From assembly GCF_037991315.1 (NCBI RefSeq), contig NZ_CP150300.1, positions 1,302,001 to 1,366,000 of the forward strand: DNA of 64,000 nt, in the 5' to 3' direction. The translations under genes and the position numbers were made by a program. Below, piece by piece: positions 33,197 through 40,187 of the stretch. The notes under the pieces are model-generated. The model did no database searches. It had not been told where the DNA came from and worked only from the letters and a program-made list of their open reading frames with translations. Origin of the DNA: Paenibacillus sp. FSL H8-0079 (GTDB taxonomy: Bacteria > Bacillota > Bacilli > Paenibacillales > Paenibacillaceae). How positions within the stretch are numbered: the first letter of the stretch is position 1; each line of letters starts with the position of its first letter.

Positions 33197-34411
33197 ATGA
33201 ACTTCTCGTGGAAGCGCAATCTGGTGATTTTATGGATTGGTGTATTTTTTTGCAGCACCGCGTATTCGATCTCTATTCCATTTCTACCCCTGTTTCTAAG
33301 TTCCGATCTGGGGGTTCGTGATCATCTGGAGTTATGGGCGGGACTGGCTTTCGGCATTACATTTCTTGCGAGTGCGCTCGTGTCACCGTTCTGGGGATCA
33401 CTGGCTGACAAATACGGGCGCAAGCCCATGCTCATCCGGTCAGGATACAGTCTTGCCGTCTTATATTTAATCAATTATTTCGTGCAGGACCCCTATTCGC
33501 TGATTGTTGTTCGATTGTTCCAGGGCCTGCTTGCAGGGTTTGTTCCAGCGGCGATTGCTCTTGTGGGCACGAATACACCTGAAGAGAAGACGGGGTATGC
33601 ACTGGGCATCATGTCTACTGCGGGAGCCACAGGTGGTATTATCGGACCGTTAATCGGTGGCGTGGTGAGCCATTATTATGGGAACCGGAATGCATTTTTG
33701 TTTTCGGCCATTGTAGTGCTGGTCTCTGCGATCATCGCAACCTTCTGGGTAAAAGAAGAGAACTTCAACCGGAACAAGGCGCGTTCCCACGTCATGGATG
33801 ACATTCGTGAAGCGAGAGCGAATCGCTTGTTTATGACGGTGCTTGGCATGATGGGCATATGTACATTCTCCGTCATGATTCTGGAGCCACTATTGACGGT
33901 CTACGTGATGGAGATGGGTATACAGCCTGATCGCGCCTCACTCAGCTCAGGTATTATTTTCTCAGCGGTAGGAGTAGCAACAGTTATTATGGCACCGCGT
34001 TGGGGCAAGATTGGTTCAAGGATTGGATACGGTAAAGTGCTGATCATTGGACTGGTTGGTGGGGCTGTAGGCAATCTTCTACAGTTCTTTACAACAGGTT
34101 ATATCGGATTTGGCGTATTGCGATTTGTATATGGTTTATTCTTTGCGGCTGTATTTCCGGCGATTAACGCCATGATTGTGCAGGCTACTGCATCTAGTTT
34201 TAGAGGCAGGGCCTTTAGTTTGAATCAGTCCGCTGCCCAGATCGGGACGATGGCGGGGCCAATCATTGGTGGTGTTCTCGGCGGCTGGCTGCCGATTCGC
34301 TGGATTTTTATCATTAACGGAGTTGCGTTGTTAATCACTGCGATTGTGGCGAAGTGGTCGGGATTGGATCACAAACTGCCCGTGGCAAGTAAGGTTCCCG
34401 CTAAACGGTGA
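33197..34411 (+). CDS. MFS multidrug-type transporter
   Basis: 404 aa, twelve membrane segments. Motif A between TM2 and TM3 is GSLADKYGRKPML; VRLFQGLLAGFVPAAIALVG and ATGGIIGPLIGGVVSH (drug-antiporter motif C: GxxxGPxxGG) place it in the DHA1 drug:H+ antiporter group, like MdtG/Blt. Ribosome binding site is weak (GGAAAGGG about 12 bases upstream). No adjacent regulator, so the substrate is open. Confidence 0.9.
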   Translation: MNFSWKRNLVILWIGVFFCSTAYSISIPFLPLFLSSDLGVRDHLELWAGLAFGITFLASALVSPFWGSLADKYGRKPMLIRSGYSLAVLYLINYFVQDPYSLIVVRLFQGLLAGFVPAAIALVGTNTPEEKTGYALGIMSTAGATGGIIGPLIGGVVSHYYGNRNAFLFSAIVVLVSAIIATFWVKEENFNRNKARSHVMDDIREARANRLFMTVLGMMGICTFSVMILEPLLTVYVMEMGIQPDRASLSSGIIFSAVGVATVIMAPRWGKIGSRIGYGKVLIIGLVGGAVGNLLQFFTTGYIGFGVLRFVYGLFFAAVFPAINAMIVQATASSFRGRAFSLNQSAAQIGTMAGPIIGGVLGGWLPIRWIFIINGVALLITAIVAKWSGLDHKLPVASKVPAKR

Positions 34412-35974: not shown

Positions 35975-37873
35975 ATGAAAAATGTGCCCAAAGCTATCGT
36001 CATCTTATGGATGAGTGTATTGATTATTCTAGGTATGCCGCATGGGATAGTCTTTGCAACTACAGGAGAGGTTCAACAGCCTGTATCCATTGCAGGATGG
36101 GAAGTAAAATGGGGGAACGTTGACGATCAGGGGTTCATCAGTGAAGTTAAGGGAGCAGACGAGATATGGGAAAAGCAGGGTGTCGATAAGTTAGAGTATA
36201 GCAGTACAGATCGATCGAGCTCCTTATGGACTCGCCTGACCATCCCTGTATTGACTGAGGAAAGTTCAGCCATTCGATTCGAGAACATTAAAGGCAATCA
36301 TATTGTGATCTATCTGGAGGACCGCAAGGTCTACGAGAACTACCATTACAATTATGATAATAATGCTGTGTTGCTGCCCTTATCCAATGAGAATTCAGGT
36401 GACACGCTCTATGTATGGTCGCAAAATGAGAAAGGCCGTTTGGGCATACAAGGTACCGTTCAAGTTGGACCGTATGCCGCTTTACAGGAGAAATATATCC
36501 ATAACGGGCTTATTGATGTCATCTTGGGCGCGACTTTTGTCTTCACAGCGATTACGATGCTGAGTTGTACGTTCTTTCTGGGCAAATTCCACAAGGGGTT
36601 GTGGATCTCGCTATGCATCGTGATGGGCTCCATCGGCACGATGATCATCACGTACTCGCAATTTTTATATACGTTCTACCAGGTATATGGTGACCTGTAT
36701 TCGGTAGTCTTTGATCTGGCGATGCTATTGGGTATGCCAGCGCTCTGTTATTTCTTTGAACAGATTATCGGGCCAGGTCTGCATGGAATCTTCACCAAAC
36801 TACGAAAAATACAATTCATATATTCAGTTGTTGCTGTGTTTTCTCTATTTATCTATGTTACTTCAGGCGGACAATGGGAGTTCCTCTACAATCTGCTCGT
36901 ACAGCGTGTGGTTGGCATGGTGCTTGTCATCCTGCTGACAATTCTGTTGGTTGGTACCATCGCCAAAGCGCTACAACGAAACCGGGAAGCGATGCTGCTT
37001 GCGACAGGATTCGGTACATTTGCCTTGATCAGTGTGGCTGAATTGTTGTGGTACTATCAGCGGAGTGGTTCATATCATCTTTTATGGTGGAAATGGTCGA
37101 TGGTTGCATTTGTGATCTCGTTGATTGCCATTCTCGGAAGTCGTTTTGCTGAAAAACATACCAAAGTGCTAGAGTACTCCAAAGAACTGGAGTTGTTCAA
37201 CAACGAGTTGCAGCGATCTGAAAAGATGGAGATTATTAGCGAACTGGCTGCTTCCGTTGCCCATGAAGTACGTAATCCGCTTCAGGTGACAAGAGGGTTC
37301 CTTCAGCTCATGACAGAACAGGAAGACAACAAAAATAAGGGGTATGTTCGAATTGCGTTGGAAGAACTTGATCGGGCTTCCGGCATCATTACGGACTTTC
37401 TTACCTTTGCCAAACCTGAGTTTGACCACATTATCTCGCTCAATATCTCGGATGAATTCAATCATATCGAAGGTATTCTTGTACCGATGGCTAATCTCGA
37501 AGGTGGTAAAATCACCACCGACATTCCGCCAGATCTATATATTCGGGGCAATTCCTCGAAGTTCAAGCAAGCTTTTATCAATATTATCAAGAACAGTATT
37601 GAAGCTCTGCAGGGACAAGGCCAGATAGATATCTGGGCGTATAAGCAGGATGGAATGATTAAGGTGCATGTCAGGGATAACGGAGAAGGAATGGACGAGG
37701 AAGCACTCTCCCGGTTGGGCGAGCCTTATTTCTCCAACAAAATCAAAGGCACAGGCCTCGGCATGATGGTGACTTTCCGCATTGTTGAAGCGATGCAAGG
37801 ACAGATCAGCTTTACAAGCACCAAAGGGGTAGGAACAGAAGCGGTTGTATCTTTCACCGAGTTCGTCGAATGA
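35975..37873 (+). CDS. Sensor histidine kinase with 7TMR-DISM-like input
   Basis: 632 aa. Signal-like N-terminus, an extracytoplasmic beta-rich domain (about 30-170), seven or eight membrane segments (about 178-395), then HisKA and HATPase domains. Phosphorylation site is SVAHEVRNPLQVTRGFLQL (His near 430); ATP-site boxes NIIKNSIEAL (N), VRDNGEGMDEE (G1) and KGTGLGMMV (G2). The layout matches 7TMR-DISM histidine kinases and is close in style to orphan sporulation kinases. No response regulator is nearby. GAGGTG precedes the ATG. It converges on the ComQ-like/NHLP pair 78 bases away. Confidence 0.9.
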   Translation: MKNVPKAIVILWMSVLIILGMPHGIVFATTGEVQQPVSIAGWEVKWGNVDDQGFISEVKGADEIWEKQGVDKLEYSSTDRSSSLWTRLTIPVLTEESSAIRFENIKGNHIVIYLEDRKVYENYHYNYDNNAVLLPLSNENSGDTLYVWSQNEKGRLGIQGTVQVGPYAALQEKYIHNGLIDVILGATFVFTAITMLSCTFFLGKFHKGLWISLCIVMGSIGTMIITYSQFLYTFYQVYGDLYSVVFDLAMLLGMPALCYFFEQIIGPGLHGIFTKLRKIQFIYSVVAVFSLFIYVTSGGQWEFLYNLLVQRVVGMVLVILLTILLVGTIAKALQRNREAMLLATGFGTFALISVAELLWYYQRSGSYHLLWWKWSMVAFVISLIAILGSRFAEKHTKVLEYSKELELFNNELQRSEKMEIISELAASVAHEVRNPLQVTRGFLQLMTEQEDNKNKGYVRIALEELDRASGIITDFLTFAKPEFDHIISLNISDEFNHIEGILVPMANLEGGKITTDIPPDLYIRGNSSKFKQAFINIIKNSIEALQGQGQIDIWAYKQDGMIKVHVRDNGEGMDEEALSRLGEPYFSNKIKGTGLGMMVTFRIVEAMQGQISFTSTKGVGTEAVVSFTEFVE

Positions 37874-37950: not shown

Positions 37951-38193
37951 TTAACTTCTCCAAGGTCCACAATTCACATCATAATTTACTTTGGAAGGGT
38001 TGGGAGGTATGACAAGAACATAGTCATTCTGCTGCTCCTCAACGGTACGTACCTGAATGTGCTCCGGAATTACGATGCCGAACGCTTCACGAAGCGCCTG
38101 CTTCGGATTGGAGTGCAATTGTTGTCTGAAGTGCTCGTCACTCCAAGCCTTTTCAATAATATCCTCATGCAACGTTTTCTCTGATACCATCAT
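37951..38193 (-). CDS. NHLP-leader RiPP precursor, ComX-like position (80 aa)
   Basis: Precursor peptide candidate. ATG at 38193 with AAGGGA 9 bases upstream (two earlier in-frame ATGs overlap that site). Residues 11-65 read as a nitrile-hydratase-like leader peptide: DIIEKAWSDEHFRQQLHSNP, KQALREAFGIVIPEHIQVRT, then VLVIPPNP; this alpha-helix plus EFGI.IPE..V pattern and PPNP end are diagnostic of the NHLP family. The remainder, about residues 67-80, is SKVNYDVNCGPWRS, a short core with one Cys and one Trp three residues from the end. It lies 54 bases downstream of a ComQ-like gene on the same strand, as comX follows comQ. Modification of the Trp by prenylation is inference. Confidence 0.8.
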   Translation of the reverse strand: MMVSEKTLHEDIIEKAWSDEHFRQQLHSNPKQALREAFGIVIPEHIQVRTVEEQQNDYVLVIPPNPSKVNYDVNCGPWRS

Positions 38194-38247
38194 CGTCAAC
38201 ATTCCCTTCATATTTAAAATTAAACTGAATCAGCTTCATCCTTGTGC

Positions 38248-39195
38248 TCAGGATTCCAACTGTTGCTCGCTGATCCAGTGATGAAACCCGCCTTGGAGGA
38301 GCTGTTTCTTCCGTTGTGTAATGTCCTGAATAGCTTGTACTAAAGTACTGTATAAATAGGAATTAAACGTCTCAAGATGCGATATACCTGAGTTAGATGA
38401 TGTTAATATACGATTATATTGATAAGCAATGTCTACGTAAGAGTTCATGAGTTGTGTATTGTATACATTGTCATGTATACGTTCGCTAAGAGGATGAGCG
38501 GGATAGTTGTGATTCAGTGCTTCGGATATGTGGGAGAGGTAGCTGTTGTAGTTTCCATGCACAGCATCTTGTTGCGTGTCTGTGAAGTCATCGGTCATCT
38601 GGAGTGTCATGAGTGTGATATTGATGCCAGAACACACCGGGATTATCCGGTCGGACTGTTTTTGCAGAAGCAGTGCACCCGTAGCTCCAATGAGCAGAGG
38701 AGCAGCCTTTTGCGCAATCAACAAGGGACTCTTTTGAAAATAATCAATGGAATGCTCACCCGTTACACTTACGGCCCAATCCACGACATATTGTCTGAAA
38801 TAGATCCAGAATGTGGAGGAAGGATCGAATAATTCCGAGTAAGATTGAAGTGCATCCATGTAATATAAATTACCCACGGATAATTTCCATGTGGCATCCT
38901 CAGGTTGTTCATCCATTACGTCGTCCTGATTCAGAAAATATAACATGTGAATGAGGCAGGCTGTACTTAATTGGTGTGCTTTTTCTTGGGGTAGTTTGTC
39001 TGAGTGTTGCATCCAGAGTGGAATGATGTACCCGATGTAACTGTGTCCTGAATCTCGTAACAGCGGATTAACCGAATACAGTTGTTTCAATGCATATCCT
39101 GACAAGGGTTCGGGATATTTCCGTACGAGTTGTTCCGCTGAAGCAAACACGATCTCCAGATCGGATCTAAACGGATCTAACCATTCTCTTCGCAT
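38248..39195 (-). CDS. ComQ-like isoprenyl-synthase-fold protein
   Basis: 315 aa, all-alpha. Two aspartate-rich motifs of trans-isoprenyl diphosphate synthases: DDVMDE at 91-96 and DDFTD at 202-206, about 110 residues apart as in that fold; lysines and the second-helix Arg motif are less clear than in housekeeping GGPP synthases. Length (~300) and position directly upstream of a short peptide gene are like ComQ, which prenylates and processes ComX on Trp. It could instead make a free prenyl diphosphate. AGGAAGGA lies 12 bases before ATG, slightly far. Upstream region has unusual repeats (39237-39297). Confidence 0.78.
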   Translation of the reverse strand: MRREWLDPFRSDLEIVFASAEQLVRKYPEPLSGYALKQLYSVNPLLRDSGHSYIGYIIPLWMQHSDKLPQEKAHQLSTACLIHMLYFLNQDDVMDEQPEDATWKLSVGNLYYMDALQSYSELFDPSSTFWIYFRQYVVDWAVSVTGEHSIDYFQKSPLLIAQKAAPLLIGATGALLLQKQSDRIIPVCSGINITLMTLQMTDDFTDTQQDAVHGNYNSYLSHISEALNHNYPAHPLSERIHDNVYNTQLMNSYVDIAYQYNRILTSSNSGISHLETFNSYLYSTLVQAIQDITQRKKQLLQGGFHHWISEQQLES

Positions 39196-39449: not shown

Positions 39450-40187
39450 ATGAACATGAAATGTAAAACATGGATAGCAGCCGGATTGGCAGCTATAGTC
39501 ATAACAGCAGGAACTGGGCATGTGGCATTCGCTGATCCAGCACTTCGGATTGAGGAACATAACGATGCATCTAAAGCTTCTTCGTCCGCTAAACAAGCAA
39601 AACCATGCATGCAGGCAGGACACGGTTTGTTTATGATCGGTGAAACGGCAGACCTGCTGGGGATTGGTCTTCGGGATCTGAAAGCACAGATGGAGCTGGG
39701 CAAGACGTTGTCCCAGATTGCCAAAGAGCGTAAAGGACTTAGTGAGGAGCAGTTACTGCAGAAGTTGAAGCCTACATTGGCGCAGCGTCTGGATCAAGCC
39801 GTAGAAGAAGGTTGTCTCACCAAGGAACAAGCAGCAGCTACCAAGGCAGACATGGATACCAAGTTGAAAAAGGTCATCAATACCCCGCTTCGCGATTTGC
39901 GGCGTGAGTTTGCCCACCATGGCAAACGTTCCATGGTAGATAAGGGCGAAATTGCCCGTTTTATTGGAGTTACACCTGCTCAACTGCATGAGCAGCTTCA
40001 GGGAGGGAAGTCCCTGGCTGAGATTGCTCAGGCAAAAGGCATTAGCGAGACACAGCTGGTGGACAAGCTGAAGGAACAATTGACGGGTGATCTGAAGAGG
40101 TTTGTGAATCAGAAGGGCAATGCGCATCCAGCCCCAGGTCACCAAGAGCCTGTTCCCGGACGATCCACTTCGACCGAAGTAAAATAA
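39450..40187 (+). CDS. Secreted helical-repeat protein
   Basis: 245 aa. Signal peptide with KTWIAAGLAAIVITAGTGHV and likely cleavage after AFA. Two repeats of a helical unit: IGETADLLGIGLRDLKAQME LGKTLSQIA and KGEIARFIGVTPAQLHEQLQ GGKSLAEIA, each followed by LSEEQLL/ISETQLV-KLK and a helix; such units occur in many exported proteins of Paenibacillus and Clostridia with no known function. A Cys pair (PCMQAG; EEGCLTKEQ) may form a disulfide. Single gene followed by a terminator. Confidence 0.82.
   Translation: MNMKCKTWIAAGLAAIVITAGTGHVAFADPALRIEEHNDASKASSSAKQAKPCMQAGHGLFMIGETADLLGIGLRDLKAQMELGKTLSQIAKERKGLSEEQLLQKLKPTLAQRLDQAVEEGCLTKEQAAATKADMDTKLKKVINTPLRDLRREFAHHGKRSMVDKGEIARFIGVTPAQLHEQLQGGKSLAEIAQAKGISETQLVDKLKEQLTGDLKRFVNQKGNAHPAPGHQEPVPGRSTSTEVK

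Follow-up and report, generated by a model that had tools for sequence, protein, structure and literature searches.

Genes at the locus

The window, that is the whole analysed stretch of 64,000 nucleotides from Paenibacillus sp. FSL H8-0079, contains a trio of adjoining genes which, by gene content, conservation, homology and fold, is a PalQ-PalX-PalP system. The palQ homologue (38248..39195, minus strand) encodes a 315-aa protein predicted to be a trans-isoprenyl-diphosphate-synthase-like peptide tryptophan prenyltransferase, with the FARM DDVMD (D91 and D95), the Trp-recognition residue Gln199 and the SARM DDFTD (D202 and D206). A gap of 54 bases (38194..38247, minus strand) separates its stop codon from the ATG of the palX homologue (37951..38193, minus strand), an 80-aa precursor composed of an NHLP leader and a core with Trp78 as its antepenultimate residue (NCGPWRS). 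The preliminary description had located both minus-strand reading frames, the gap, the two aspartate motifs, the leader and the NCGPWRS end correctly. An alternative, longer palX reading of 86 aa starts at 38211 and matches the NHLP leader model TIGR03793 at E=5.2e-18, better than the curated cut-off; since the ribosome-site-like AAGGGA lies nine bases before the ATG at 38193, the sequence supports the 80-aa start over the 86-aa one. The putative core (37954..37995, minus strand) would span approximately residues 67–80 (SKVNYDVNCGPWRS), with a presumed boundary at the PPNP motif, beyond which the conservation of the leader is lost.

On the opposite strand, the palP homologue (35975..37873, plus strand) encodes a 632-aa membrane sensor histidine kinase which converges on the enzyme-peptide pair and ends 77 bases from the end of palX, so that the absence of an adjoining sensor kinase implied in the preliminary description does not hold. 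The kinase carries HisKA and HATPase_c domains (Pfam), and its kinase half is nearest to the AtoS and KinD models, both matched far below their cut-offs. Judged by hydropathy plot only, an N-terminal hydrophobic segment is followed by about 145 extracytoplasmic residues and some seven further hydrophobic segments.

Divergent from the enzyme gene lies a gene for a 245-aa protein with an N-terminal hydrophobic, signal-like stretch (39450..40187, plus strand). A relative of it is present in all 21 long same-genus loci; among the 80 named loci of a wider scan it occurs in 25/25 of the window clade and in 7/55 of the others, and its product is probably a neighbour of close relatives rather than a component of the system. 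An MFS transporter gene (33197-34411) is found 1.5 kb past the kinase and has a relative in 10 of the 21 long loci. Fourteen proteins of the window were scanned, comprising the trio and 11 neighbours: no Pfam match to a response-regulator domain was obtained among them, neither did they include a radical-SAM, lanthipeptide or thiazole enzyme, and the scanned neighbours offered no plausible partner in the way of an exporter, protease or response regulator.

Conservation and linkage of enzyme, peptide and kinase

The enzyme is present in 63 of 75 genomes of the genus. In 50 of these 63 enzyme-bearing genomes the locus was examined, the window's own included, and in 50/50 palX lies directly downstream on the same strand, which bears out the earlier expectation that the two genes are conserved as neighbours. 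A wider scan of species genomes yielded 197 relatives, 80 of which were kept and examined as named records (79/80 titled Paenibacillus, one Bacillus sp.), and in 75 of these 80 the peptide lies no more than about 0.33 kb from the enzyme. As the pair is kept in 50/50 same-genus loci and in 75/80 named records, the pairing goes far beyond chance. Conversely, of the 12 genus genomes in which the enzyme is missing, 11 show no match to the PalX profile and the twelfth matches with a nitrile hydratase alpha chain only (PF02979, 3.8e-88). In one locus (L019, G005:C1) enzyme and peptide share a single open frame through a shift near the 3' end of the enzyme gene, reflecting either a fusion or an assembly error.

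The kinase is the convergent neighbour in 21/21 long loci (20 plus the window). With the PalX profile, 79 peptides are detected across 78 of the 80 named loci, and in 78/78 the kinase match begins, antisense, 24–230 bases beyond the peptide (in L110, with two peptides, beyond the later one). In three records (L106, L118, and L122) the peptide lies 2–4 kb from the enzyme within the same locus and the kinase stays with the peptide. In L081 the peptide-kinase pair is found about 33 kb from the enzyme on the same contig, and in Paenibacillus nasutitermitis (L121, pairs at L140) two convergent PalX-PalP pairs lie about 4 kb apart, approximately 13 and 18 kb from the enzyme; one enzyme was found there as opposed to two peptide-kinase pairs. 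The apparent lack of a peptide in L081 and L121 was thereby ruled out, as a whole-genome search located both peptide and kinase elsewhere on the contig. With these two included, the peptide adjoins the kinase in 80/80 named records examined (of the 197 relatives). Because both genes stay together in the five records where the enzyme lies 2 to about 33 kb away, the linkage between peptide and kinase is the tightest within the trio. A further arrangement is seen in Paenibacillus cellulosilyticus (L154, NZ_CP054613.1, 7760-12147 of the fetched stretch), where one PalQ-like gene (27% identity) is followed by five tandem palX genes, with one convergent palP; the five peptides have different cores, and in all of them a lone residue follows the Trp, a different one in each.

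Outside Paenibacillus, hits from Tolypothrix, Nostoc, Acetivibrio, a Bacillota MAG and a Salmonella-labelled contig were looked at. The last is a partial protein (P0023), 78% identical to the window enzyme and encoded on an 838-base contig, whose Salmonella enterica label most likely reflects contamination. Enzyme relatives in Acetivibrio and the Bacillota MAG (P0083, P0088, and P0086) show 24–27% identity. On a plasmid of Tolypothrix sp. PCC 7910 (NZ_CP050446.1, L155:1-1115) a PalQ-like gene with 23% identity, cut by the start of the record, directly precedes the gene of a peptide annotated as Os1348-family (NHLP clan), whose one Trp occupies position 17 counted from the C-terminus; this pair is a possible cyanobacterial cousin of PalQX. 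In a plasmid of Nostoc sp. UHCC 0926 (L156, 470-6312), NHLP peptides with GG leader ends, a large lanthipeptide-synthetase-like reading frame and Nif11-like peptides lie beside each other as judged by eye, and the whole looks like an ordinary, different NHLP cluster.

Predicted prenylation and the position of the tryptophan

By itself the window enzyme matches no Pfam or NCBIfam family, and a PDB sequence search returned nothing significant (one match, E=1). It aligns over 306 aa with a reference PalQ-like protein (35% identity, E=2e-62) which we identify, from its residues, as PalQ or a near-identical orthologue, since K39, D89, D93, Q197, D200, and D204 stand at the published numbers and the core begins DNVRRF. 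No match to a degenerate pattern of the P. alvei core was obtained in 392 genomes. The aspartates of FARM and SARM and the Gln before SARM are present in the window enzyme and in 91/91 aligned enzymes. Structure comparison with Foldseek shows a fold resembling housekeeping prenyl synthases, and neither a ComQ nor an Ord1 structure is among the 50 matches listed. Clustering with housekeeping synthases, named in the preliminary description as a refuting outcome, is not seen in sequence, where no Pfam match is obtained, yet the fold is common to both. Relatives carry public names such as hypothetical protein, ‘class 1 isoprenoid biosynthesis enzyme’, ‘Heptaprenyl diphosphate s...’ and similar. 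A role as housekeeping GGPP or heptaprenyl synthase was ruled out by the lack of a Pfam family match, the invariant Gln before SARM and the linkage to the peptide.

The preliminary description had proposed a possible new class of system in which the Trp is prenylated. According to the available parts of the original report, however, PalQ of P. alvei attaches C5–C15 isoprenoids to the C-terminal Trp of PalX. The reaction benefits from the NHLP leader, and for the C5 product, a pyrroloindole after ring closure, the isoprenoid has been located at indole C3 (Miyata, Ito, Fujinami, 2023; PMC10853753). The system was thus already published in 2023 as PalQ/PalX/PalP, and while the claim of novelty falls, the chemistry proposed earlier appears right as far as homology to this proven Trp C3 prenyltransferase and an invariant Trp can tell, but was not the first of its kind. 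On this homology, prenylation of Trp78 in the 80-aa peptide by the window enzyme is likely.

In an alignment of 41 diverse peptides, the Trp is the only invariant column after the PxxP end of the leader (41/41) and the other core columns are variable, in agreement with the conservation of the core Trp that had been anticipated. All 79 family peptides have a W within the last four residues, as opposed to 26 of 912 reading frames of at least 200 aa from the same loci (2.9%), a comparison set which was drawn up mechanically and includes spurious frames. The Trp is the last residue in 41 of the 79 and is followed by one residue in 11, by two in 24 and by three in three (38 tailed). Tailed peptides come largely from the window clade (25/38), defined as 26 members including the window with enzymes down to 60% identity; outside it 13/54 are tailed. 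Within the clade all peptides are tailed, with the Trp third from the end in 23/26 and fourth in 3/26. The window peptide, ending GPWRS, thus departs from those with a last-residue Trp, a feature treated here as defining an activity type and not a gene family, and its Trp stands two residues deeper in the chain than PalQ, the enzyme studied, would accept. The clade core is under purifying selection, with a pN/pS of 0.084 across 26 peptides (25 distinct DNA sequences) in a simple pairwise count that ignores relatedness.

Parsimony on the enzyme tree places three (79 rows) or four (88 rows) changes between last and near-last Trp, and the well supported branches of the 79-row tree alone force two to three. 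The 88-row set left out L150, L152, and L153 through a filter on length and DD[VLI]MD, the unfiltered 91 giving the same invariant residues; the tail states of L081 and L121 were taken from the whole-genome search, and L144 was scored as C-terminal on the basis of the core published for P. alvei. The assembly of L144 (G404) loses the PalX frame just ahead of the expected Trp, through either a real change or a sequencing error.

Direct prenylation of the WRS end is not assured, because PalQ is, in the accessible part of its description, inactive on peptides with Ala added after the Trp (PMC10853753) and, as summarized in the available portion of a recent review, Gly at positions −2 to +2 around an internal Trp allows only low activity (2026 review, PMC13290415). 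The same portion of that review notes that an N-terminal Trp can also be modified by PalQ (PMC13290415). We slightly favor a first step in which the 315-aa enzyme, by homology to PalQ, would prenylate Trp78 with the two-residue tail still on, as ComQ does with ComX; the tail-on form of this step is our inference. Alternatively, a carboxypeptidase may trim the tail first, so that the enzyme would see a C-terminal Trp only, as PalQ requires. The strictness of PalQ speaks for such trimming, which we regard as possible but rather doubtful, and the tail length of near-identical enzymes (95.5% identity with one and two residues after the Trp; 92.6% with none and one) varies as if it were irrelevant to the enzyme, although these tail differences fit either prior trimming or a tail-tolerant enzyme. 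Arg directly after the Trp in 26/26 clade peptides, in turn, is unexpected for a tail that is to be discarded. A further point against trimming concerns K39, which in the simulations described in the available part of the PalQ paper occasionally touched the C-terminal carboxylate and was played down by the authors (PMC10853753). The equivalent residue is basic in 35/49 enzymes with C-terminal Trp against 15/42 with tailed peptides (all 91 enzymes; 35/47 against 14/41 in the 88-row set) and non-basic in 26/26 window-clade enzymes, but the latter are one clade and a phylogeny-aware independent-pairs test of residue against tail state gives a median p of 1 (88 rows). AlphaFold read-through models of one internal-Trp and one C-terminal-Trp case neither show nor refute docking of the tail in the enzyme, because the Trp tail is of low confidence in both. 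How trans-isoprenyl-synthase-like enzymes select the Trp by its position is the property to which PalQ owes its value in peptide lipidation, and the window system supplies a natural test of it.

Proposed signalling by PalP and comparison with known systems

After prenylation of Trp78, an unlinked protease would remove the NHLP leader, as is RiPP practice. Gene linkage further suggests that the short prenylated peptide may leave the cell by an unlinked route and that the neighbouring multi-TM histidine kinase may sense it and pass phosphate to an unlinked regulator. As the peptide and kinase genes move and duplicate together, the PalX product and PalP are suggested to be ligand and receptor, and a pheromone function of prenylated PalX is reasonably probable. 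The extracytoplasmic part is the least conserved part of PalP: across 53 kinases outside the clade, the median identity to the window protein is 24% there and 65% in the kinase part. Sensor parts of kinases are generally variable, and the bearing of this difference on ligand sensing is weak. ComX pherotypes are polymorphic, whereas the core of the window clade is nearly invariant, which counts against a pheromone.

NHLP leaders usually belong to bioactive RiPPs, and the modified peptide might instead be a bacteriocin-like or surface-active product, with the kinase as its regulator or immunity-type sensor and not a pheromone receptor. Antimicrobial peptides do become more potent after PalQ prenylation according to the available portion of the recent review (PMC13290415). 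Such a product is nevertheless unlikely, as the set retained throughout the 21 long loci consists of kinase, enzyme and one secreted-type protein alone, without a transporter or immunity gene beside the trio; the kinase adjoins each peptide gene or array, duplicated pairs included, and occurrence in 63 of the 75 genus genomes is more like that of a regulatory system. A small-molecule role for the enzyme, as a terpene or prenyl-diphosphate synthase next to an unrelated peptide, might be suggested by its housekeeping-like fold and the public names of its relatives but is highly improbable given the homology to a proven peptide prenyltransferase, the Gln before SARM in all aligned enzymes, the strict linkage to the peptide and the conservation of the Trp.

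Taken together, these observations could describe a second, ComX-independent family of prenyl-Trp pheromones across Paenibacillus, with PalX as ligand and PalP as dedicated receptor, in which ligand-receptor pairs are duplicated together and share a single enzyme, and the window clade has converged on the ComX layout with its Trp prenylated tail-on; as a whole this is plausible but falls somewhat short of probable. If PalP is indeed the receptor, a large genus would possess a prenyl-peptide signalling system directly open to genetic test.

Proteusins combine an NHLP leader with radical-SAM type maturases. The TIGR03793 leader is common to the window and to proteusins and other NHLP-leader RiPPs; proteusin-type maturation enzymes are absent from the 14 scanned window proteins. 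With PalQ/PalX/PalP the window shares the three genes, a homologous enzyme (35%), the type of NHLP leader, the Trp and the FARM, Gln and SARM residues, and differs from it in that the Trp is third from the end and not last, the core is unrelated and the K39-equivalent is not basic. The PalQ paper, in the available part of its main text, names the kinase PalP once and leaves its role undiscussed (PMC10853753). The system has been known since 2023 and the window is a variant with a near-last Trp; among the open-licence papers searched we found no account of such a tailed-Trp PalX or of PalP function.

The Bacillus ComQ/ComX/ComP/ComA system, in the accessible parts of its descriptions, likewise places an isoprenoid-synthase-fold enzyme before a small precursor with a near-terminal Trp (third or fourth from the C-terminus in ComX), with a multi-TM kinase nearby (PMC5331326; PMC4008528), and ComQ of strain RO-E-2 accepts a Trp second, third or fourth from the end (PMC5331326). 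ComQ has a degenerate second Asp-rich motif, or pseudo-SARM, according to the same part of the literature (PMC5331326), whereas the SARM of the window enzyme (DDFTD) is intact. Furthermore, kinase and response regulator of ComQXPA are linked on one strand, while the window kinase lies on the opposite strand and no linked regulator was found among the 14 scanned window proteins. The ComX family PF05952 is neither among the Pfam matches of the window peptide nor matched in the genome G000. One genome (G041) holds a PalQX pair (L029) and a separate ComQ-like/ComX-family pair (L051:331-1683; PF00348 1e-19, PF05952 2.7e-7), and the two systems therefore coexist there. The ComX-family peptide of L051 ends NWGD, and the PalX peptides of Paenibacillus macerans and Paenibacillus barengoltzii (L094 and L103) have the same kind of end (WGD and WGE, respectively). 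Against the PF00348 match of the L051 enzyme stands the lack of any Pfam match of the window enzyme, and a comparison of an 11-row enzyme profile (A1) with the single L051 protein gave a probability of 1.4%. Membership in ComQ by sequence was ruled out, as no relation to this ComQ-like protein is detectable. Of four enzymes more distantly related to that of the window, three do reach PF00348 weakly, below cut-off, which makes a deep kinship likely. Given its other precursor family, the lack of a detectable enzyme relation, the intact SARM and the convergent kinase, the window system works like ComQXPA but is not a member of it.
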